DNA from: Rhizobiales bacterium dw_265
Lineage (GTDB): Bacteria > Pseudomonadota > Alphaproteobacteria > Micropepsales > Micropepsaceae
NCBI GenBank assembly: GCA_018449595.1
Contig: JAAVUU010000002.1
Location: 372,001-436,000 of the forward strand
Direction: 5' to 3'
Length of the DNA stretch: 64,000 nt
Part shown: piece by piece, positions 49,585 to 58,460 of the stretch
Position numbering within the stretch: position 1 is the first letter of the stretch
Layout of the letters: every line of letters starts with the position of its first letter
Program-made: the position numbers and the translations under genes
Notes under the pieces: generated by a model
Told to the model about the DNA's origin: nothing
The model's input: the letters and a program-made list of their open reading frames with translations, nothing else
Databases searched by the model: none

Positions 49585-50535
49585 CTACTGCGTGCCGTTG
49601 GTGTCTTCGCCGTAATTGTGCAGCATGGTCGGACTGCGGTTGAAGGCGATGCGTGTATCCACCTGGCCCGGCGCAAAGCTGGCGCGATGCCAGCGCTGCG
49701 GCGTGGTCAGCACCAGGTCGCCGGGCCCCGCCACCACCAGGCCGATGCCTTCGATCTGATAGGCGATCTTGCCTTCCGGGATGAACCAGAATTCGTCGTT
49801 GCCGACATGGAAATGGCCCTTGTTGCTGTCGGGCGGGATCGCCACGCCCGGGCCGCGAATGATGGCGGCCTGGTTGTCGGCGTCGTTGACGAAAAAGGTC
49901 AGGCGGCGGCCCTTGGCCTGCGGATCGGCGGCAACATAATCCTTCAGGAAATCCAGCCAGGGCTTGTTGACGTCGGTATAGACATCCCGGCCGCCGCCTA
50001 CCGGCTTGGTGGGATAGCTGACCTTGACATAATGCTGGCCGGCTATCGGCTTTGGCGCTTCACCGCTGTCCAGCGGATAAGAGGGCAGGGCGCCGCCGCG
50101 CGTGATCTCCAGCCGCAGCGAGGGCATATCGCCCACCGTCTCCATGGAATAGGGCACCCTGAGCGGCACCTGCACCAGAAAGCCCTTGCTGGCGATGAAC
50201 GGCTTCTGGCCTTCGATGGTGAAGCGAATCTGGCCGTCCCACACGATCCAGACGGTGCGGTCGTCGCCATAGAACTGGGCACGGGTCTTTTCGCCCGGTG
50301 CCATGGAAATCCATTTTGCGCTGTAGCGTTCGGTCTCGATCACATCCTCGGTCCAGCTTTTCTGGCCCGCATGTTTCGCCAGCACGTCGGCGATGCGCCA
50401 GACCGGCTTGTTGACGCCGGCATAGGGGACCGGCGTGCCCTTGGGCGCCCAGGACAGGTAGACCTTGCGCTCCTGCGCCGAGGCGGGAAGGGCAAGCAGC
50501 GCGACGGCGCAGGTGGCGATCAGCAGCTTTTTCAT
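49585..50535 (-). CDS. Exported two-domain cupin protein, paralogue 1
   Basis: 316 residues with signal peptide KKLLIATCAVALLALPASAQ. The first cupin (about residues 90-150; WDGQIRFTIEGQKPFIASKG) lacks the usual His ligands. The second (about 230-300) has a full site: SNKGHFHVGNDEFWFIPEG (His-x-His and Glu) and PQRWHRASF (fourth ligand His). Two copies of the same protein type occur at 50546-51478 and 56814-57761. The start ATG 50535 lies directly after the other copy's stop, so they form an operon. The reaction is unknown; metal-dependent dioxygenase, isomerase or sugar-binding roles are possible. Confidence 0.8.
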   Translation of the reverse strand: MKKLLIATCAVALLALPASAQERKVYLSWAPKGTPVPYAGVNKPVWRIADVLAKHAGQKSWTEDVIETERYSAKWISMAPGEKTRAQFYGDDRTVWIVWDGQIRFTIEGQKPFIASKGFLVQVPLRVPYSMETVGDMPSLRLEITRGGALPSYPLDSGEAPKPIAGQHYVKVSYPTKPVGGGRDVYTDVNKPWLDFLKDYVAADPQAKGRRLTFFVNDADNQAAIIRGPGVAIPPDSNKGHFHVGNDEFWFIPEGKIAYQIEGIGLVVAGPGDLVLTTPQRWHRASFAPGQVDTRIAFNRSPTMLHNYGEDTNGTQ

Positions 50536-50545
50536 GGTCGGCCTC

Positions 50546-51478
50546 CTACTGCCTGCCGCCGGCGTCGGGGCCGAAATTGTGGAACAGCAGCGGGCTGACA
50601 TTGAAGGACAGCCGCGTGTCGGTCTGGCCTGCCGCCCAGCTGGCGCGGTGGAAGCGGCCGGGCGGCACGAACACGATGTCGCCGGCATCGGCGGTGAACA
50701 GGCCGGCCTTCTCGATCAGGTAATCGCACTTGCCTTCCAGGATGAACCAGAATTCCTCGTCGCCGATATGGAAGTGACCGCGATTGCCGGCGGGCGGTGT
50801 GGGCACGCCGGGGCCGCGGATGATGTTGACCAGATTGGCCTCGTCGGCCACCACCAGATGGTCTTTCGGCCCCTGGGCAGAATCGGCGGTCTCCTTGAAG
50901 AAATCGCGATAGGGGCGGTTCACGGCATCATATTTATCGGGCTGGGTCGGGGTGCTGATCTTGATGTAATCGCCATCGGCTTGCGGTGGCTTGGGCTGGC
51001 CTTCATCGGCGGGATAGCTGGGCCGGATGCCGGCATGGGTGACCTCGAAGCGCAGCGAGGGCTCACTGCCGATGGTCTCCATCGAATAGCGTACCCGCTG
51101 CGGCACCTGCACCAGGAAGCCCTTGGTCGCCACGAAAGGCTGCTGGCCCTGGATGGTGAAGCGGATCTGCCCGTCCCATACCACCCACACCACGCGGTCA
51201 TCGCCGTAATACTGCTCCGGCGTCTTGTCGCCCGGCGCTGCCGCGATCCATTTGGCGTCGTAGCGTTTGGTGAGAATGACTTGTTCGCTCCAGCGCGCCT
51301 GGCCCTTGTGCCGGGCCAGCACCGCGGGCAACCGCGCCACCGGCTTGTTCCTGCCATAGGCTGGCAGCTTGTCGGGCTTGGGCGACCAAGCATACCAGGC
51401 GTCCTGCGCCAAAGTCACCGGCGCAGCCAGGCTCAAACCCGCCATGCATCCCAGGGCCAGCCACCAGCGTTTGGTCAT
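50546..51478 (-). CDS. Exported two-domain cupin protein, paralogue 2
   Basis: 310 residues. Signal peptide RWWLALGCMAGLSLAAPVTLAQ. Same layout as paralogue 1: an N-terminal cupin without ligands (WDGQIRFTIQGQQPFVATKG) and a C-terminal cupin with NRGHFHIGDEEFWFILEGK and PGRFHRASW. Compared with paralogue 1 the N-terminal halves share long stretches (WDGQIRFTI, KGFLVQVP, YSMETIG), so they are duplicates. ATG 51478. It lies 67 bp downstream of the Tat-exported aldolase gene, on the same strand, and 10 bp before paralogue 1. Confidence 0.8.
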   Translation of the reverse strand: MTKRWWLALGCMAGLSLAAPVTLAQDAWYAWSPKPDKLPAYGRNKPVARLPAVLARHKGQARWSEQVILTKRYDAKWIAAAPGDKTPEQYYGDDRVVWVVWDGQIRFTIQGQQPFVATKGFLVQVPQRVRYSMETIGSEPSLRFEVTHAGIRPSYPADEGQPKPPQADGDYIKISTPTQPDKYDAVNRPYRDFFKETADSAQGPKDHLVVADEANLVNIIRGPGVPTPPAGNRGHFHIGDEEFWFILEGKCDYLIEKAGLFTADAGDIVFVPPGRFHRASWAAGQTDTRLSFNVSPLLFHNFGPDAGGRQ

Positions 51479-51545
51479 TATTTTCCCCAAGCCATGAAAA
51501 AGCGCGGCCCGGCACTGAGGCAAGGCCGCGCGACTGTCGAAGCGG

Positions 51546-52541
51546 TCACACCATCGTTTTGAGTTGCACGACACCGGCGCGCAGCTTGGCTTTCTCTTCA
51601 TCGCTCAGCGGCACATGCGGCGGCCGCGCCAGGTTCACCCGGCCCGAGCCCATCATCAGGTTCAGGGCATATTTGATGGCGTTGTAATTGGAGCTGTAGC
51701 CATTGGCCTGCATCAGGTTGGTCGCCGCGGTCAGCTTGTCGAAGGCGGGCTGGGGGTCCTGGCCGGCGCGGTGCGCGGCGAAGATGCCCGCCACCAGCTT
51801 GGTATAGACATTGCCCGAGCCCAGGATCACGCCGTTGCCGTGCCGGAGCGCGGCCAGCATGTTGTTGTCGGTGCCCGAGATGATGTTGAGGCGGCCCGGT
51901 GTCTGGGTGGACAAGGCCTCGAACTCGTCGGCCACGCCATGGGAGTTCTTGATGCCGGCGAAATTGGGATGGCGCTCTGCCATGGCGGTCACGAAAGCCG
52001 GCGTGATCGTCACGCCCGTCACCTGGGGGATATCGTAATAGCGCACGGCCAGGCCGGGGGGCAGTTTCTCCATCACCACCCGGAAATATTCCAGCAGGCC
52101 GTCGGTCTTGGGATTCTTGAAATAGAAGGGCGGCTGGATCAGCACGCTGTCGGCGCCGATGGCGGCGGCGTGCTGCGACAGCTCAATGGTCTCCTTGAAG
52201 TTGGCCGTGCCGGTGGTGACGATCAGGTCCAGGCCGTTGCGATGCTTGATCGCGGTCTCGGCGATCTTCTTGCGCTCGGCCACCGAGAAGGAGGGGCCTT
52301 CGCCATTGGTGCCCAGCACCAGCACGCCATCGGCGCCCTGGCCTTTCCACCAGGCAAGCTGCTCGGCATAGGCCGCGGCGTCGAACTCGTAATTTCCGCC
52401 GCAAGGTGTCGTGCCGGCGACCCAGAACTTGTCCTTATTTGCGGGAAGGGCGGCGGACACCGGGGCGCTGACCGCCGGGGTCACGCTGGCGACCATTGCC
52501 GCCGTGCTCATGCCGACAAACATCCTGCGCGTGGTGTCCAT
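51546..52541 (-). CDS. DapA/NanA-family aldolase with Tat signal (exported)
   Basis: 331 residues. N-terminus TTRRMFVGMSTAAMVASVTPAVSA is a twin-arginine signal, very unusual for this normally cytoplasmic family. The TIM-barrel core shows DHDPS-type elements: VLGTNGEGPSFSVAERKKI, the Tyr of VRYYDIPQVTG and the Schiff-base Lys of FAGIKNSHG. Strong ribosome site GGGAGG precedes ATG 52541. The family makes or splits aldol adducts of pyruvate. With the exported cupins downstream, it suggests a periplasmic aldol step on a sugar acid or similar compound. It could also be an envelope paralogue that lost activity; the two catalytic residues are kept. Confidence 0.8.
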   Translation of the reverse strand: MDTTRRMFVGMSTAAMVASVTPAVSAPVSAALPANKDKFWVAGTTPCGGNYEFDAAAYAEQLAWWKGQGADGVLVLGTNGEGPSFSVAERKKIAETAIKHRNGLDLIVTTGTANFKETIELSQHAAAIGADSVLIQPPFYFKNPKTDGLLEYFRVVMEKLPPGLAVRYYDIPQVTGVTITPAFVTAMAERHPNFAGIKNSHGVADEFEALSTQTPGRLNIISGTDNNMLAALRHGNGVILGSGNVYTKLVAGIFAAHRAGQDPQPAFDKLTAATNLMQANGYSSNYNAIKYALNLMMGSGRVNLARPPHVPLSDEEKAKLRAGVVQLKTMV

Positions 52542-52764
52542 GGAATCCTCCCAGATCCGGTTTGGGCGGCCGGTTTTCCGGCGCTCCGTTTTGCCCGGAT
52601 AAAGTCTCACTTCCGCAAGCGACTGTAAACAAGGCGGATCGCGCGACAGCCTTTGTGCGACGCAGCAAGAAAAACTGTCCCCGGTGCGTTTGGCCGCTTC
52701 CGCAACCACTTGACTTAAAGTCGGCCGCGCCCAAACGTCCCTGTAAATAAAACCAGGGGAAAGC

Positions 52765-53817
52765 ATGGTCCGCGAACTGAAGCGCCGTCATTTCGTCATG
52801 TGTGCCGCCACCGCCGCCGGCCTGGCCGCGACGGGCGCGCCCGTCTGGGGCAAGACCATCAAGCACACGCCGCTGGACCCGGTGAATCCCGACCTCTTGT
52901 TCGGCACCACCAGCTCCATCTGGAACGATGCCGGGCTGGTCACCGACACGCCCTATACCACCGAGACCGCGATCAAGGCGATCGCGGCGCGCGGCCTGCA
53001 GGGCATCGAATTCTACGGCCATGGCATCCATGCCTATATCGACAAGCCGATGGCGCTGAAAAAGCTGTTCGACGATGCCGGCATCACCTTCATCGACGCT
53101 TCCAATGGCGAGAAGGGCCAATCGACCAATTTCATCGATCCCGACGCCATCCCCAAGACCATCGCCGATCATGTCGCCTTCTGCCGCGATTTCCTGCAGC
53201 CGCTGGGCTGCGATCATTTCAAGATCAACATGGGGGCGCGGCCTGTGGGTGGCCCCAGCGAAGACCAGCTCAAGCGCCTGGCCGATACCCTCAACACCCT
53301 GGGCGAGAAGACCATCGCCATGGGCATCCGCCTGTCGCCGCATCCCCATATCTGGGGGCCGATGGAGCGTGAAAAGGACATGCGCTGGGTGATGGACCAC
53401 ACCGATCCGAAATATGTCTGGCTGTGCGCCGACACCGGGCATCTCACTTTGGGCGGCGGCGACGCGGTGCAGATCATCAGCGACTATTTCCCGCGCCTGT
53501 CGGAAGTCCATCTCAAGGACACCTACGCCAAATATCGCGGCAACACCCAGACGCCGACCCAGGAACAGCACAAGATCGCCAGCGTCTATCACAATCTGGG
53601 CGGCGGCGGCGTGGACTTCCCCGGCGTCTTCAACGTGCTGCGCGACAGGCATTTCAAGGGCTGGGTGATCTTCGACGTGGACGGCCCGCGCAAGGGCGAT
53701 GACGGCTATGACGCCATCGGCGGCAACGACAAGCTGAAGATCGACGATTACCTCTCGCACAACATCAATTATCTGCGCGACGTGCTGGGCGTGAAGCTGC
53801 CGCCGCAGCCTTATTAG
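52765..53817 (+). CDS. Tat-exported sugar-phosphate isomerase/epimerase-like TIM barrel
   Basis: 350 residues. Twin-arginine signal RELKRRHFVMCAATAAGLAATGAPVWG. The mature part is an AP-endonuclease-2/xylose-isomerase-like TIM barrel: LQGIEFYGHGIHAY, DHFKINMGAR, WLCADTGHLTLGGGD and LSEVHLKDTYAKY carry the His, Asp and Glu residues typical of the metal site. Substrates in the family are keto or aldo sugars. Divergent from the DapA-like gene 223 bp away; the near-palindrome GACTTAAAGTC at 52712-52722 in the intergenic region may be an operator. Starts the plus-strand half of the exported pathway. Confidence 0.82.
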   Translation: MVRELKRRHFVMCAATAAGLAATGAPVWGKTIKHTPLDPVNPDLLFGTTSSIWNDAGLVTDTPYTTETAIKAIAARGLQGIEFYGHGIHAYIDKPMALKKLFDDAGITFIDASNGEKGQSTNFIDPDAIPKTIADHVAFCRDFLQPLGCDHFKINMGARPVGGPSEDQLKRLADTLNTLGEKTIAMGIRLSPHPHIWGPMEREKDMRWVMDHTDPKYVWLCADTGHLTLGGGDAVQIISDYFPRLSEVHLKDTYAKYRGNTQTPTQEQHKIASVYHNLGGGGVDFPGVFNVLRDRHFKGWVIFDVDGPRKGDDGYDAIGGNDKLKIDDYLSHNINYLRDVLGVKLPPQPY

Positions 53818-53828
53818 TGAGATACCGC

Positions 53829-54245
53829 ATGTTTCGTTCATGCATGATTGCGATGCTGCTGGCGGCCGCGCCGGCATTTGCCGCCGGCTATGAGGCCGAA
53901 CTCGATCCCGCGCCGTTCGACGCCGGCAATCGCGGCGATGTCATCAACAGCATCGGCAACGTCATCGCCACCCTGGACGGCAACCGGCTTTCCATCCAGG
54001 GCACATTCTCGAACATGACCTCGCCCGCGACGGCGGCCTCGCTGCGCATCGGCCTGGCCAAGGGCGTGCCGGGCGATGCCATCGGCACCCTGACCGTGGA
54101 CCATGCGCCGAACGGCGCGGTTGCGGGGGCGGTGACCCTGACGCCGGAGCAGGCGGCGGCGCTTGCCAGGCAGGCGCTCTATGTCCGCATTGACAGCGAA
54201 AAGGCGCCCGACGGCAATCTTCAGGGCTGGCTGGAAGGCAAATGA
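53829..54245 (+). CDS. Exported CHRD-domain-like protein
   Basis: 138 residues with signal peptide RSCMIAMLLAAAPAFAAG. The mature beta-rich part (EAELDPAPFDAGNRGDVINS, then TLDGNRLSIQGTFSNMTS and a closing VRIDSEKAPDGNLQGWLEG) resembles CHRD-domain proteins, known from chordin and many bacterial secreted proteins with no fixed role. Start ATG 53829 is 11 bp after the stop of the TIM-barrel gene; a GTG overlapping that stop is in frame. The end overlaps the quinoprotein start by 4 bp. Confidence 0.68.
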   Translation: MFRSCMIAMLLAAAPAFAAGYEAELDPAPFDAGNRGDVINSIGNVIATLDGNRLSIQGTFSNMTSPATAASLRIGLAKGVPGDAIGTLTVDHAPNGAVAGAVTLTPEQAAALARQALYVRIDSEKAPDGNLQGWLEGK

Positions 54246-56380
54246 TCATGTCGCGCAAATTCCTGCTGGGCGCGGCCGCATTGATCGGCTTTGGGTGCGC
54301 CATCGCCTGGGCGCAGGCGCCTGCGGGCGTCTATACCACGGCGCAGGCCGCCGCCGGCCACGCCGTCTATGCCCGGAACTGCGCCGGCTGCCATCGCGAC
54401 AATCTCGCGGGCGGCGGGGATGCACCGGCGCTGGGCGGCAATGGTTTCATCAGTTCCTTCGGCGCGCGTTCGACCAGGGACCTGTACAAATTCATCGCCA
54501 CCTCGATGCCGGTGGGCGCGCCCGCCAGCCTCAGCGAGGCGCAATACACCAATGTCGTGGCCTATCTGCTGCAGGCCAATGGCGCTGCGGCGGGCACAAA
54601 GCCGTTCAGCAGGAACACCGACGTCAAGGTTTCCAGAATCGCAACCGGCAAGCCGCCGGCCCGGACCCCCAAGACTCCCAAGACCATTAATGACGCGCCG
54701 CTGAACGCGCGCAGCGACCTGATGGCGCCGCCGTTCCAGCTTGGCCATACCGTGAAGGGCGTGGTGAAGAACTATACCGACGTCAGCGACGAGATGCTGC
54801 AGCATCCCGATGACGGCGAATGGCTGATGTATCGCCGCAATTACCAGGGCTGGAGTTTCAGCCCGCTGAAGCAGGTCAATACCGGCAATGTGAAGCAGCT
54901 GACGCTCAAATGGGCATGGAACATGAACGAGGGCGGCGCCAGCCAGGTGACCCCCATCGTCCATGCCGGGGTGATGTTCCTGTCCAACACCTCCAATACG
55001 GTGCAGGCGCTGGACGCCAGGACCGGCGAGCTGATCTGGGAGAACCGCCTCGGCCCGGTCTCGGTGATCGCCTATGGCGGCACCCGCAGCTTGGCCGTGT
55101 ATCACGACAAGGTGTTCGTCGCGACCACCGACGCCCATCTCCATGCCCTGGACGCGCGCACCGGCAAGCAGGTGTGGGAACAGACCTTGGGAAATCCCAA
55201 CAACAGCAACACCGGCGGCGTGATGGTGATGCGCGGCAAGGTGCTGACGGGGCTGACCGGCTGCGACAACTATTCGCTGAACAACTGCTATATCAGCGCC
55301 TTCGACGCCGACACCGGCAGGAAGTCGTGGATCTTCCATACCACCGCGCTGGAAAACGAGCCGGGCGGCGACACCTGGAATGGCTTGCCCAACCTGTTAC
55401 GCGGCGGCGGCGACACCTGGATCGCCGGCACCTACGATCCGGAACTCAATACGACCTATTGGGGCGTGGCCCAGACCAAGCCCTGGTTCCGCGCCAGCCG
55501 CAAGACCTTCGGCGCGTCGACGCTCTATTCGTCGTCCACGCTGGCGCTCAACCCCGATGACGGCAAGCTGAAATGGTATTTCCAGCATGCGCCCGGTGAA
55601 TCGCTCGATCTCGACGAAGTGTTCGAGCGGGTGCTGATCGACCATGGCGACCAGAAGACACTGATGACCATCGGCAAGGCGGGCATCCTGTGGAAGCTGG
55701 ACCGCGTCACCGGCAAGTTCATCGACTTCAAGGAGACCATGTTCCAGAACGTCTTCGCCGACCTGGATCGCAACACCGGCAAGCTGACTTATCGCAAGGA
55801 CATCATCGATCAGAAGACCAACCAGTGGCTGTCGTCCTGCCCCGGTCCCGAAGGCGGCCATGACTGGCAGGCCGTCAGCTATGACCAGCCCGACGACCTG
55901 ATGATTATCCCGCTCAGCCAGAGCTGTGTGATGATCGAAGGCCATGACGTGGACCAGAAGCTGGGCGGCGGCGGCACCGCGGCGTCGCAGAAATTCTTCT
56001 TCATGCCCGGCACCCACCAGAACATGGGCAGGCTGGTCGCCTATCGCACCAGCGACATGAAGGAAGTGTGGTCCTGGCAGCAGCGTTCGCCCTTCCTGAC
56101 TTCGGTGCTGTCAACCGGCGGCGGGCTGGCCTTCGTGGGCGACTTCGACCGCAGCTTCAAGGCGATGGATGCCAAGACCGGCAAGATCGTGTGGCAGACG
56201 AGGCTGGGCAACACCGTCCAGGGCTATCCCGTCAGCTTCAGCATCGACGGCAAGCAGTATATCGCGGTGGCGACCGGGTTGGGCGGCGGCAGCCCGCAGC
56301 AGAAGCCGACCGGGCTGCTGGACGAGGTGCATCGCGCTCCCACCGGCAATGTGCTGTATGTCTTCGGGCTGTCCGACTAG
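54242..56380 (+). CDS. PQQ-type quinoprotein dehydrogenase with N-terminal cytochrome c
   Basis: 712 residues with signal peptide RKFLLGAAALIGFGCAIAWAQ. Residues about 30-115 form a cytochrome c: ARNCAGCHRDNLAGGGDAP (CxxCH) and later YTNVVAYLLQANG with the axial Met region. After a Pro/Thr-rich linker comes an eight-bladed propeller of the PQQ alcohol/glucose dehydrogenase type (repeating ALDARTGELIWE, HALDARTGKQVWE, AFDADTGRKSWI). The haem is N-terminal, whereas known quinohaemoprotein alcohol dehydrogenases carry it at the C-terminus. The adjacent Cys-Cys pair of alcohol dehydrogenases is not seen (TGCDNYSLNNCYI). PQQ cofactor is inferred, not shown. ATG 54242 or 54248. Likely oxidises an alcohol or sugar in the periplasm. 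Confidence 0.85.
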   Translation: MIMSRKFLLGAAALIGFGCAIAWAQAPAGVYTTAQAAAGHAVYARNCAGCHRDNLAGGGDAPALGGNGFISSFGARSTRDLYKFIATSMPVGAPASLSEAQYTNVVAYLLQANGAAAGTKPFSRNTDVKVSRIATGKPPARTPKTPKTINDAPLNARSDLMAPPFQLGHTVKGVVKNYTDVSDEMLQHPDDGEWLMYRRNYQGWSFSPLKQVNTGNVKQLTLKWAWNMNEGGASQVTPIVHAGVMFLSNTSNTVQALDARTGELIWENRLGPVSVIAYGGTRSLAVYHDKVFVATTDAHLHALDARTGKQVWEQTLGNPNNSNTGGVMVMRGKVLTGLTGCDNYSLNNCYISAFDADTGRKSWIFHTTALENEPGGDTWNGLPNLLRGGGDTWIAGTYDPELNTTYWGVAQTKPWFRASRKTFGASTLYSSSTLALNPDDGKLKWYFQHAPGESLDLDEVFERVLIDHGDQKTLMTIGKAGILWKLDRVTGKFIDFKETMFQNVFADLDRNTGKLTYRKDIIDQKTNQWLSSCPGPEGGHDWQAVSYDQPDDLMIIPLSQSCVMIEGHDVDQKLGGGGTAASQKFFFMPGTHQNMGRLVAYRTSDMKEVWSWQQRSPFLTSVLSTGGGLAFVGDFDRSFKAMDAKTGKIVWQTRLGNTVQGYPVSFSIDGKQYIAVATGLGGGSPQQKPTGLLDEVHRAPTGNVLYVFGLSD

Positions 56381-56817
56381 TTTTTGTTGACGGGCATGTG
56401 CACGGCCATGGTGATCAGTTCGCCCTGGATTTCGGTGTATTGATGCGGCGTGTTGGCCGGCACCAGGACATAGTCGCCCTTGCCGACCTTGCGCGGCGAC
56501 CCGCCTTCGATCTTGCCGCCTGACAGGATGCCCCCGGTTATCAGGGTGCAGCCGCCGCCGATTACTTCGATCAGTTCGTTCTGGACGGGATGGACGGACG
56601 GTGGCGTGGTGCCGGTGCGAAATTCCAGTTGCACCGGATAACCCGGCAGGTTGCCGATGATCTTGACCGTGTTGCCGTCCTTGTGTTCGGCCCGGGCCTG
56701 GGCGATCAACGCCTGGACGTCGGCGGCGGAACTGAACAGCCTGACCGGCGGCGGCGCTGCTTGCGCCAGCGCGGGCAGGGGGACCAACGCCAGCGCAGCC
56801 AGCAGCGCCAGCCTCAC
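56377..56817 (-). CDS. Small exported cupin protein
   Basis: 146 residues with signal peptide RLALLAALALVPLPALAQ. Single cupin domain: SVHPVQNELIEVIGGGCTL supplies His and Glu, and VPANTPHQYTE the second His, the minimal cupin metal set. The start codon overlaps the stop of the two-domain cupin gene by 4 bp, so both are co-translated. Convergent with the quinoprotein gene. Function unknown; part of the exported cupin set. Confidence 0.75.
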   Translation of the reverse strand: MRLALLAALALVPLPALAQAAPPPVRLFSSAADVQALIAQARAEHKDGNTVKIIGNLPGYPVQLEFRTGTTPPSVHPVQNELIEVIGGGCTLITGGILSGGKIEGGSPRKVGKGDYVLVPANTPHQYTEIQGELITMAVHMPVNKN

Positions 56818-57761
56818 TGCTTGGCCCCGGATTCGGGATCGAAATTGTGCATGCCATAGGGCCGGGGATTGATGGCGATGCGGGTGCTCATGCCGGTGCC
56901 GGCCCAGCTGGCGCGATGCCAGCGCCCCTGGGGGGCATAGACCACATCGCCGACATCGGCGGTGAAGACCGGCTTGCCTTCCATCTTGTAGTCCACGGTG
57001 CCTTCGGCGATCACCCAGAACTCGTTATAGTCGATGTGGAAGTGGCCCTTGTTGCTGTCGGGCGGGGTCGGTGTGCCATGGCCGCGGATCACGTTCATGA
57101 AATTGGTGGTGTCCGAGACAAAGGCATGGTCGCCAGATGAGGGCGGCCGCTTCACGAAATCGCCCCAGAAATCCAGATAGGGCTTGTTCTGGTCGGTGTA
57201 GGGATCGGGCGGGGTACGATAGCTGGCCAGGACATAGGTCTTGTCCTTGGCAGTCGGCGCGGGACCCGGATCGTTCTGGGTCGCTGGATAGAGCGGCGTG
57301 CGGCCCGAGCGGATCACTTCCAGGCGAACCGACGGCTCATCGCCCACCGTCTCCATCCAGTAGATGTTGCGATAGGGCACCTGCACCAGCCAGCCCTTGG
57401 AGGCCACGAACGGCTCCTGGCCGTCGATGTGGAAGCGGATCTGGCCCGAAGCGACGTACCAGAAGATGCGGTCGTCGGCCCAGAACTGGGGTTTGGTCTT
57501 TCCGCCCGAAGCCATCGCGATGTAGTTGGCGTCGTAGTCCTGGTCATGGACGATGGGCTGGACCCAGTCACCCTTGCCCTTGTGGGCCGCCAGGATCTCG
57601 CTCAGCCGCCAGATCGGCTTGTTGGGCGCCGCCCAGGGCGTCAGCGGCACCGGCTTGGCCGACCAGCTGTACCAGATCTTCGGCGCCTGCTGCGCCAGCG
57701 CGGGCGCGGCCAGCGCCATGACCGCCACCGAAGCGCAAGCCAGCTTGTGAAACTTGTTCAT
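56814..57761 (-). CDS. Exported two-domain cupin protein, paralogue 3
   Basis: 315 residues, signal peptide KLACASVAVMALAAPALAQ. Same architecture as the two paralogues at 49.6-51.5 kb: N-terminal cupin without ligands (ASGQIRFHIDGQEPFVASKG) and C-terminal cupin with SNKGHFHIDYNEFWVIAEG and QGRWHRASW. The three share motifs over their length, including the KGxLVQVP and ETVGDxPSLRLE-type blocks. Start ATG 57761. The 3' end overlaps the small-cupin gene start by 4 bp. Three copies within 8 kb point to a shared pathway with different substrates or subunits. Confidence 0.8.
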   Translation of the reverse strand: MNKFHKLACASVAVMALAAPALAQQAPKIWYSWSAKPVPLTPWAAPNKPIWRLSEILAAHKGKGDWVQPIVHDQDYDANYIAMASGGKTKPQFWADDRIFWYVASGQIRFHIDGQEPFVASKGWLVQVPYRNIYWMETVGDEPSVRLEVIRSGRTPLYPATQNDPGPAPTAKDKTYVLASYRTPPDPYTDQNKPYLDFWGDFVKRPPSSGDHAFVSDTTNFMNVIRGHGTPTPPDSNKGHFHIDYNEFWVIAEGTVDYKMEGKPVFTADVGDVVYAPQGRWHRASWAGTGMSTRIAINPRPYGMHNFDPESGAKQ

Positions 57762-57884: not shown

Positions 57885-58460
57885 ATGAAGTTTCAAATCC
57901 TCATTGTTCCAGCCTTGCTGGCGGGCACGTTCGCCGCCCCGGCCGCCGCCCAGACCGTGGTTTCGCGCGGCTTCGGGCTGGCTCATGACTGTTACATCTA
58001 TGCCCGCATGGGGCGCTCGCCGCGTGACGGCATCGACGCCTGCAATGAAGCCCTGAAGCGCGAGCCGCTGGACACCAAGGACCAGGCCGCGACCCATGAC
58101 AATCGCGGCGTGATGCTGGACGCGCTGGGCAAGTCCGCCGAGGCGCAGCACGACTTCCAGACCGCGGTGATGCTGAAACCGGACCTGGGCGATGCCTATG
58201 TCAATCTGGGCTCGATGCTGATCAAGAAGCGCCAGTATCCGGAGGCGCTGGACAACATCAACAAGGGGCTGGCGCTGGGGATGGGCTTTCCCCATATCGG
58301 CTATTACGACCGCGCCGTGGCCGAGGAGATGATGGGCCGCTACAAGGAATCCTATTACGACTACAAGAAGGCGCTGGAGCTGGAGCCGGGCTACACCCAG
58401 GCCAGCGAGCGGCTGAAGGACTTCACCGTGACAACGGTTCCGGCCAAGAGCCCGACCTGA
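57885..58460 (+). CDS. Exported TPR protein
   Basis: 191 residues with signal peptide KFQILIVPALLAGTFAAPAAAQ. Three tetratricopeptide repeats follow (ATHDNRGVMLDALGKSAEAQHDF, GDAYVNLGSMLIKKRQYPEALDN, PHIGYYDRAVAEEMMGRYKESYY). Start ATG 57885 is behind GGGGAGAG with 7-nt spacing. Divergent from paralogue-3 cupin, but a separate unit. Likely a periplasmic protein-interaction adaptor; partners unknown. Confidence 0.8.
   Translation: MKFQILIVPALLAGTFAAPAAAQTVVSRGFGLAHDCYIYARMGRSPRDGIDACNEALKREPLDTKDQAATHDNRGVMLDALGKSAEAQHDFQTAVMLKPDLGDAYVNLGSMLIKKRQYPEALDNINKGLALGMGFPHIGYYDRAVAEEMMGRYKESYYDYKKALELEPGYTQASERLKDFTVTTVPAKSPT

Follow-up and report, generated by a model that had tools for sequence, protein, structure and literature searches.

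A conserved cluster of predicted exported enzymes in Rhizobiales bacterium dw_265 and its possible role in periplasmic catabolism

Eight consecutive genes at positions 49585-57761 of a 64,000-nt window (the whole stretch of DNA analysed; contig JAAVUU010000002.1 of Rhizobiales bacterium dw_265, GCA_018449595.1) encode three two-domain cupins (bicupins cupA, cupB and cupC), a small cupin, an aldolase, an IolE-like TIM barrel, a CHRD-domain protein and a quinohaemoprotein, all with predicted export signals. Judged from the sequences, the grouping of predicted exported enzymes here is genuine, is conserved and goes beyond chance. The reading that we favour, at a probability of about 0.5, is that the eight genes specify a periplasmic pathway that breaks down a polyhydroxylated compound (a sugar, sugar acid or cyclitol). 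In this scheme the quinoprotein P0006 would oxidise a hydroxyl of the substrate, on the ring or terminal, yielding a keto group or a lactone, and pass the electrons through its own haem to the respiratory chain, its pyrroloquinoline quinone (PQQ) being scavenged. P0004, with a metal ion, would then eliminate water adjoining the new keto group, the three bicupins, each with one 3-His-1-Glu site, might isomerise or oxidatively cleave the enol or dione, and the aldolase P0003, where present, would split a 2-oxo acid into pyruvate and an aldehyde. As these steps would use only metals, haem, PQQ, oxygen and an enzyme lysine, the cytoplasmic cofactors NAD, coenzyme A (CoA) and ATP would not be needed. 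We infer every reaction in the pathway, and the scheme is offered as the most economical fit to the parts and to the absence of cytoplasmic cofactors. The locus is organized as follows.

49585..50535, minus strand: cupA (P0001), two-domain cupin, predicted exported; Cupin_2; C-terminal metal site; start 50535
50546..51478, minus strand: cupB (P0002), two-domain cupin, predicted exported; Cupin_2; start 51478
51546..52541, minus strand: P0003, predicted Tat-type DHDPS-superfamily aldolase; DHDPS; nearest solved relative YagE; start 52541
52542..52764, no strand: divergent intergenic region between P0003 and P0004, 223 bases
52765..53817, plus strand: P0004, Tat-type IolE-like TIM barrel; AP_endonuc_2; start 52765
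53829..54245, plus strand: P0005, CHRD-domain protein, predicted exported; CHRD; start 53829
54248..56380, plus strand: P0006, predicted exported quinohaemoprotein; N-terminal cytochrome c and PQQ beta-propeller; start 54248
56377..56817, minus strand: P0007, small cupin, predicted exported; Cupin_2; GTG start 56817
56814..57761, minus strand: cupC (P0008), two-domain cupin, predicted exported; Cupin_2; start 57761
57885..58460, plus strand: TPR protein, predicted exported; recurrent cluster neighbour of uncertain membership

The eight open reading frames (ORFs) described in an earlier sequence-only reading of the window were confirmed at this position, and Pfam domains were assigned: Cupin_2 in four proteins, then DHDPS, AP_endonuc_2, CHRD and the cytochrome with the PQQ propeller. 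That reading had arranged the genes in two divergent groups; there are three, dapA (P0003)-cupB-cupA on the minus strand, P0004-CHRD-quinoprotein on the plus strand and cupC-small cupin on the minus strand, the last converging on the second with a 4-base overlap. P0007 overlaps both neighbours by 4 bases. It was correct that these coordinates hold no transport or regulator gene. Its eight-gene set is present and is adjoined by a ninth gene, that of the TPR protein, which has relatives in six other fetched loci and in the genus sits between cupC and mazG. A promoter scan reported no sigma-70-like site in the 223-base intergenic region, and the counts from the promoter and terminator scan were close to chance.

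Export signals were called with a simple home-made rule for Sec-type and twin-arginine (Tat)-type peptides rather than with SignalP. With the working starts, all eight cluster proteins carry such a signal; with automatic longest-ORF starts seven do, the aldolase P0003 being the one missed. Signals were found in 11 of the 43 other window genes and in 91 of 275 background genes, which were taken from 102 related loci at a distance of over five genes from any cupin; nearly all of these loci were centred on bicupins. At this background rate, eight signals in eight genes have a probability of ~1.4e-4 if genes are independent. The RR motif is kept in 3/3 aligned aldolase orthologues and in 6/6 full-length P0004 rows, and the flanking families read as tmk, holB, tatD, metallo-hydrolase and mazG gave no signal in 9, 10, 10, 11 and 11 copies, respectively. 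Most aldolase signals were missed in the locus survey because the longest ORFs begin too far upstream. Signals are enriched around bicupins: 117 of 199 genes at distance 1 have one, and 201 of 380 at distance 1-2 compared with 128 of 368 for distances of at least 5 (p 7e-7, a statistic that counts related loci as independent; L063, the same place as L051, was skipped). The claims that all products carry an export signal and that normally cytoplasmic enzyme families are gathered at this locus are thereby supported by signals and domains.

The nearest relatives of P0006 are alcohol and sorbose dehydrogenases. A CxxCH cytochrome motif lies at its N-terminus, and it scores 366.3 bits against TIGR03075 (PQQ alcohol dehydrogenase family), below the cut-off of 480. 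PMC12566506 names Trp241, Asp304, Lys349, Phe405, Asp410 and Tyr486 as the residues holding PQQ in DepA, and PMC10975547 gives Asp-311 as the catalytic residue; the latter was taken to be DepA Asp304, an offset of 7, because Leu-413 and Leu-556 stand there for Leu406 and Leu549. The DepA residues except Tyr486 were mapped in P0006 to W391, D454, K477, P534 and D539, so that Phe405 is replaced by proline. The equivalents of W391, D454, K477 and D539 are all present in the ten cluster quinoproteins read (fragments shorter than 450 residues were left out). With TIGR03075, 19 quinoprotein ORFs of the host genome (G000; 4.2 Mb, 98.6% complete) score above 130 bits and none reaches the cut-off; 17 of the 18 readable ones (L083 could not be read, and L082 was represented by L221) have the PQQ-site Trp, Asp and Lys, and one has Asn for Asp. 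P0006 shares the propeller and PQQ-site residues with known periplasmic PQQ dehydrogenases (sorbose dehydrogenase, DepA, ADH-IIG), from which it differs in its N-terminal cytochrome c fusion and its place in an exported multi-enzyme cluster.

P0004, labelled a sugar isomerase in the sequence-only reading, is nearest in both sequence and fold to IolE, an inosose dehydratase, which removes water beside a keto group. It scores 93.2 bits against TIGR04379 (IolE), below the cut-off of 290, and IolE ranks first among its matches in the PDB. The predicted model (mean predicted local distance difference test, pLDDT, 83.5) aligns with IolE structures at Z 28.8-29.6 (3cny, Z 29.6; best root-mean-square deviation, rmsd, 2.6, with 274 aligned residues), followed by Art22 (Z 27.5) and xylose isomerases (Z <=25.5). 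The model has an IolE-type fold; a shared fold shows no function. Compared with myo-inositol catabolism, P0004 shares the fold of IolE, its best solved match, whereas it falls below the IolE cut-off, carries a Tat-type signal and belongs to a genome without IolD over cut-off. The canonical inositol pathway was considered and rejected, since the best IolD in the genome reaches 226 bits and the cut-off is 715. Among six P0004 paralogue loci examined, L233 and L234 adjoin MR_MLE genes and L237 adjoins a quinoprotein gene.

The same two proteins could instead serve a 3-keto-glycoside route, in which the quinoprotein makes a 3-keto-glycoside and P0004 eliminates the aglycone or hydrates a glucal, by analogy with non-hydrolytic deglycosylation and its TIM-barrel lyases and hydratases. 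We regard this as quite unlikely. The 2-hydroxy-3-keto-glucal hydratase 8ro4 is the third PDB match of P0004 (E 3.7e-4), but IolE is the better match in both sequence and fold. PMC13273386 describes an oxidise-eliminate-hydrate scheme with a metal-dependent lyase, and PMC9007349 proposes a periplasmic 3-ketolactose route in Caulobacter; these routes (LacABC with DUF1080; TIM-barrel lyase/hydratase) follow the same logic of oxidising and then cleaving outside. In contrast, none of the eight cluster proteins has a Pfam match to DUF1080 or Gfo/Idh/MocA (E<=0.01), and bicupins and an aldolase are in place.

The aldolase P0003, described as DapA-type, does belong to the DHDPS superfamily; at 134.9 bits against TIGR00674 (DapA) it lies below the cut-off of 206 and resembles aldolases of keto-deoxy sugar acids, its nearest solved relative being YagE, a probable 2-keto-3-deoxy-galactonate aldolase. 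Class I aldolases of the DHDPS/NAL superfamily have a Schiff-base Lys and a Tyr, and P0003 Lys198 and Tyr169 align with the Lys and Tyr of YagE. Known non-phosphorylative sugar-acid pathways are cytoplasmic. The likeness to them lies in this aldolase and in Tat-type MR_MLE partners nearest to galactonate dehydratase, whereas the window enzymes are predicted to be exported and no such dehydratase is found inside the window cluster. In the locus survey, MR_MLE occurs at distance 1 from a bicupin in eight loci, with an RR start visible in seven; RraA-like proteins and 7-bladed lactonases each accompany it in five of the eight, and the MR_MLE partner protein is nearest to galactonate dehydratase, below cut-off. 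A module of TonB receptor, Tat-type aldolase (43% to P0003) and quinoprotein occurs twice in the host genome, and a quinoprotein adjoins the aldolase at 8 of 13 fetched aldolase loci (15 found) outside the window cluster. These recurring partners suggest, without proof, sugar or sugar-acid substrates rather than aromatics.

The second bicupin module, with Tat-type MR_MLE, is seen at L038:7182-10342, L114, L121, L126, L134, L171 and L185, and several copies also contain RraA-like, small cupin, LamG and 7-bladed lactonase genes. The two host receptor-aldolase-quinoprotein modules, at L221:4095-11802 (C15) and L222:4726-12316 (C1), additionally have a cytochrome/NHL protein, and receptor, aldolase and quinoprotein also occur together in G033, G036 and G071. 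At L111, L124, L127, L129, L133, L143 and L151, bicupins adjoin DUF1592-type (PSD) proteins, most with DUF1552 beyond; DUF1592/DUF1552-type families are encountered chiefly in Planctomycetes and Acidobacteria.

On the sequence comparisons made, cupA, cupB and cupC each represent a clade of their own within a single, unnamed family of exported bicupins. In a tree labelled by best BLAST hit, the cupA (14 members, support 0.968), cupB (15, 0.929) and cupC (9, 0.978) clades contain no outsiders, which indicates that three distinct proteins are kept. Across 123 bicupins (aligned after exclusion of two duplicates and of sequences no longer than 270 residues), the C-terminal cupin has the motif HxHx4E in 119 and a later His in all 123, forming a 3-His-1-Glu site, and the N-terminal cupin has no equivalent conserved metal motif. 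The single-sequence PDB search with cupB gave weak matches only, and the bicupin profile search found nothing better than E 3e-4, its matches being to an unknown cupin, phosphoglucose isomerase, quercetinase and further cupins. The structures closest to the cupC model (mean pLDDT 92.2) are those of salicylate/gentisate dioxygenases, with a best Z of 21.0 (rmsd 2.9, 235 aligned), then quercetinases (Z ~20) and oxalate decarboxylases (Z 18.6), and Foldseek places MncA, oxalate decarboxylase and quercetinase at the top. These structural neighbours of a predicted model do not allow a reaction to be assigned. The IolB/KduI family models of Pfam and NCBIfam gave no match to the three bicupins at E<=0.01, and IolB/KduI are not among the best 50 structural rows for cupC, an absence that excludes nothing. 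A scan of viral contigs with P0008 gave four pattern matches and no true relative.

These neighbours raise the alternative of periplasmic aromatic or lignin breakdown, with the bicupins as ring-cleaving dioxygenases, P0003 as a hydratase-aldolase and the quinoprotein oxidising side-chain alcohols, which we consider unlikely. The window cupins do share the two-domain fold of salicylate/gentisate 1,2-dioxygenases and quercetinases (Z 19-21), and RraA-like and FAA-hydrolase-like genes lie near some cupins. In gentisate-type enzymes, however, the iron is held in the N-terminal cupin; the motif of the bicupins is C-terminal only, and the window cupins further differ from the dioxygenases in their 10-14% identity and export signal. 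The IolE-like and galactonate-dehydratase-like partners point to polyols, the nearest relatives of the quinoprotein include sorbose dehydrogenase, and the hydrophobic DepA pair F405/L406 is replaced by Pro and Glu/Gln in the cluster quinoproteins.

Comparison within the genus, the check suggested with the sequence-only reading, found the set conserved. Of the 96 genomes of the order, 21 have bicupins (1 to 13 matches per genome); all 21 are among the 69 genomes in the genus of the window, and the other 27 have none. A sample of 386 genomes of the class yielded bicupins in 3 (at most five candidates were scored per genome, so copy counts are low). G105, the one other genus in the class sample, has its bicupin (L197) beside unlike genes. 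The bicupin places in the genus were fetched in part, with short contigs of G042, G072 and G077 among those left out. P0004 has a match at E<=1e-60 in 17 of the 69 genus genomes, all 17 among the 21 with bicupins. A close orthologue (>=62%, fragments counted) is found in 13, of which 11 (G000, G053, G025, G059, G068, G018, G083, G075, G081, G074 and G069) have P0004 and bicupins on one contig stretch; in G077 a 3.2-kb contig carries P0004, CHRD and quinoprotein only. The flanks recur, read as tatD and the metallo-hydrolase on one side and mazG, hflX and hfq on the other, and G076 has a lone bicupin at the chromosomal site of the cluster (L156). The P0003 gene is at the locus in four genomes (G000, G059, G018, G075), and in G075 the cluster also takes in genes for an esterase, a Tat-type MR_MLE protein and an arabinofuranosidase-like product. 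On this distribution of sequences, the cluster is lineage-specific.

The variable aldolase gene and the scattering of bicupins over many contexts would also suit an insertion site that gathers independent exported enzymes with lineage-specific roles and no single pathway. We give this explanation little credence, as gene set, order and orientation recur across many species, the three cupin clades stay separate, and P0004 and bicupins co-occur across phyla.

A number of observations weigh against the proposed periplasmic sugar route, and one set of them concerns the PQQ cofactor. In the host genome no PqqE exceeded the cut-off (best 57/381 bits, with a model that had no positive control), PqqC gave no match (the model is over cut-off in six genus genomes), and no full-length PqqU relative was found, the E. 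coli PqqU detecting residues 26-190 only, at 44.7 bits. The synthesis search covered PqqE and PqqC; PqqB, PqqD and PqqF were not searched. The six genomes (of 69 in the genus) with PqqC over cut-off include none of the 21 with bicupins, and the PqqC match in the bicupin genome G076 is far below cut-off (49/240 bits). The known periplasmic PQQ dehydrogenases differ in this respect from P0006, whose host has no PQQ synthesis gene found in this search. As a PQQ enzyme needs PQQ, the cofactor would have to come from outside. According to PMC12124388, PQQ scavenging is widespread, but PqqU occurs in only one alphaproteobacterium. The proposal that electrons pass to the cytochrome of the quinoprotein therefore finds support in the CxxCH motif and PQQ-site residues and is weakened by the failure to find PqqE, PqqC and full-length PqqU. 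The same failure, together with a partial match to TIGR04528 (acido-empty-quinoprotein; 279.6 bits, cut-off 650, below it), would be explained if the propeller of P0006 were 'empty', lacking PQQ, so that the cluster performed no oxidation. This is hardly credible given that TIGR03075 outscores TIGR04528 and that the PQQ-site Trp, Asp and Lys are retained in the ten cluster proteins read and in 17 of the 18 readable host-genome proteins.

The remaining points against the route concern the other parts. Curated NCBIfam cut-offs are reached neither by any of the eight cluster proteins nor by any of the ten partner proteins that were scanned. At least six genomes (G053, G025, G081, G074, G069 and G083), none of which has a P0003 match at E<=1e-60, lack the aldolase gene between P0004 and the cupins, so that the aldolase step would not be essential. 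In G034, the remaining genome with a close P0004 orthologue, the contig stops on the cupin side and a TPR gene directly follows P0004, without CHRD and quinoprotein; at three of the six P0004 paralogue loci (L039, L235, L236) neither MR_MLE nor quinoprotein adjoins. The bicupin fold is nearest to ring-cleaving dioxygenases, so aromatics would fit too, and the relatives form one clade, so the counts are not independent. One contig scan of named genomes gave 16 loci with P0004 relatives, 8 labelled Alphaproteobacteria; the cluster is absent at all five labelled Acidobacteria (L062, L066, L067; 66-71% identity) or Chloroflexota (L064, L065; 69-70%). The Chloroflexota proteins have 312 and 314 residues and align only from residue 31-33; being shorter, they probably lack a signal and are probably cytoplasmic. 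The overall proposal of a periplasmic oxidation and cleavage pathway thus retains its export signals, enzyme gathering, conservation and quinoprotein motifs, with PQQ-linked electron flow weakened and the aldolase optional.

Sugar oxidation in the periplasm is well known, and the later carbon-breaking steps are normally cytoplasmic. A wider reading, tentatively put forward, is that a PQQ-dependent host, apparently unable to make PQQ by known genes, carries out full carbon catabolism outside the inner membrane, down to pyruvate-sized products. The exported modules of this route would be swappable, namely quinoprotein, IolE-like or MR_MLE dehydratase, bicupin, aldolase, lactonase and TonB receptor, and the bicupins would be a new family that handles keto-dehydration products. 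Were dehydration and aldol cleavage also to take place outside, uptake would be of small acids and aldehydes instead of sugars. The exported bicupin family, without an assigned reaction, presents a defined target for enzymology, and 19 quinoprotein genes without detected PQQ synthesis genes provide a clear test case for interbacterial PQQ sharing. Literature searches of titles and abstract openings found no description of this gene combination, and the main text of the SAR202 paper PMC6946804 does not contain cupin, isomerase, quinoprotein, periplasm, signal peptide or Tat as whole words.

Outside the genus, bicupins were found in 4 of 198 sampled Acidobacteriota, one of the four being the search centre (at most 11 candidates were scored per genome, so copy counts are low). 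All three Acidobacteria genomes in which P0004 has a close relative carry bicupins elsewhere (337, 342 and 128 bits), and the Chloroflexota genomes gave weak bicupin matches only (60 and 52 bits). At L062 a small cupin (37%) lies two genes on from the P0004 relative, with an NHL protein close by, and L064:2432-10390, with its P0004 relative (69%), has apparent enolase-superfamily and ABC transporter genes nearby, as read from translations. The genes of L056, a record labelled Acidobacteria, are 72-80% identical to those of the window; this record and L063, labelled Rhizobium, carry the genus locus and are probably mislabelled.

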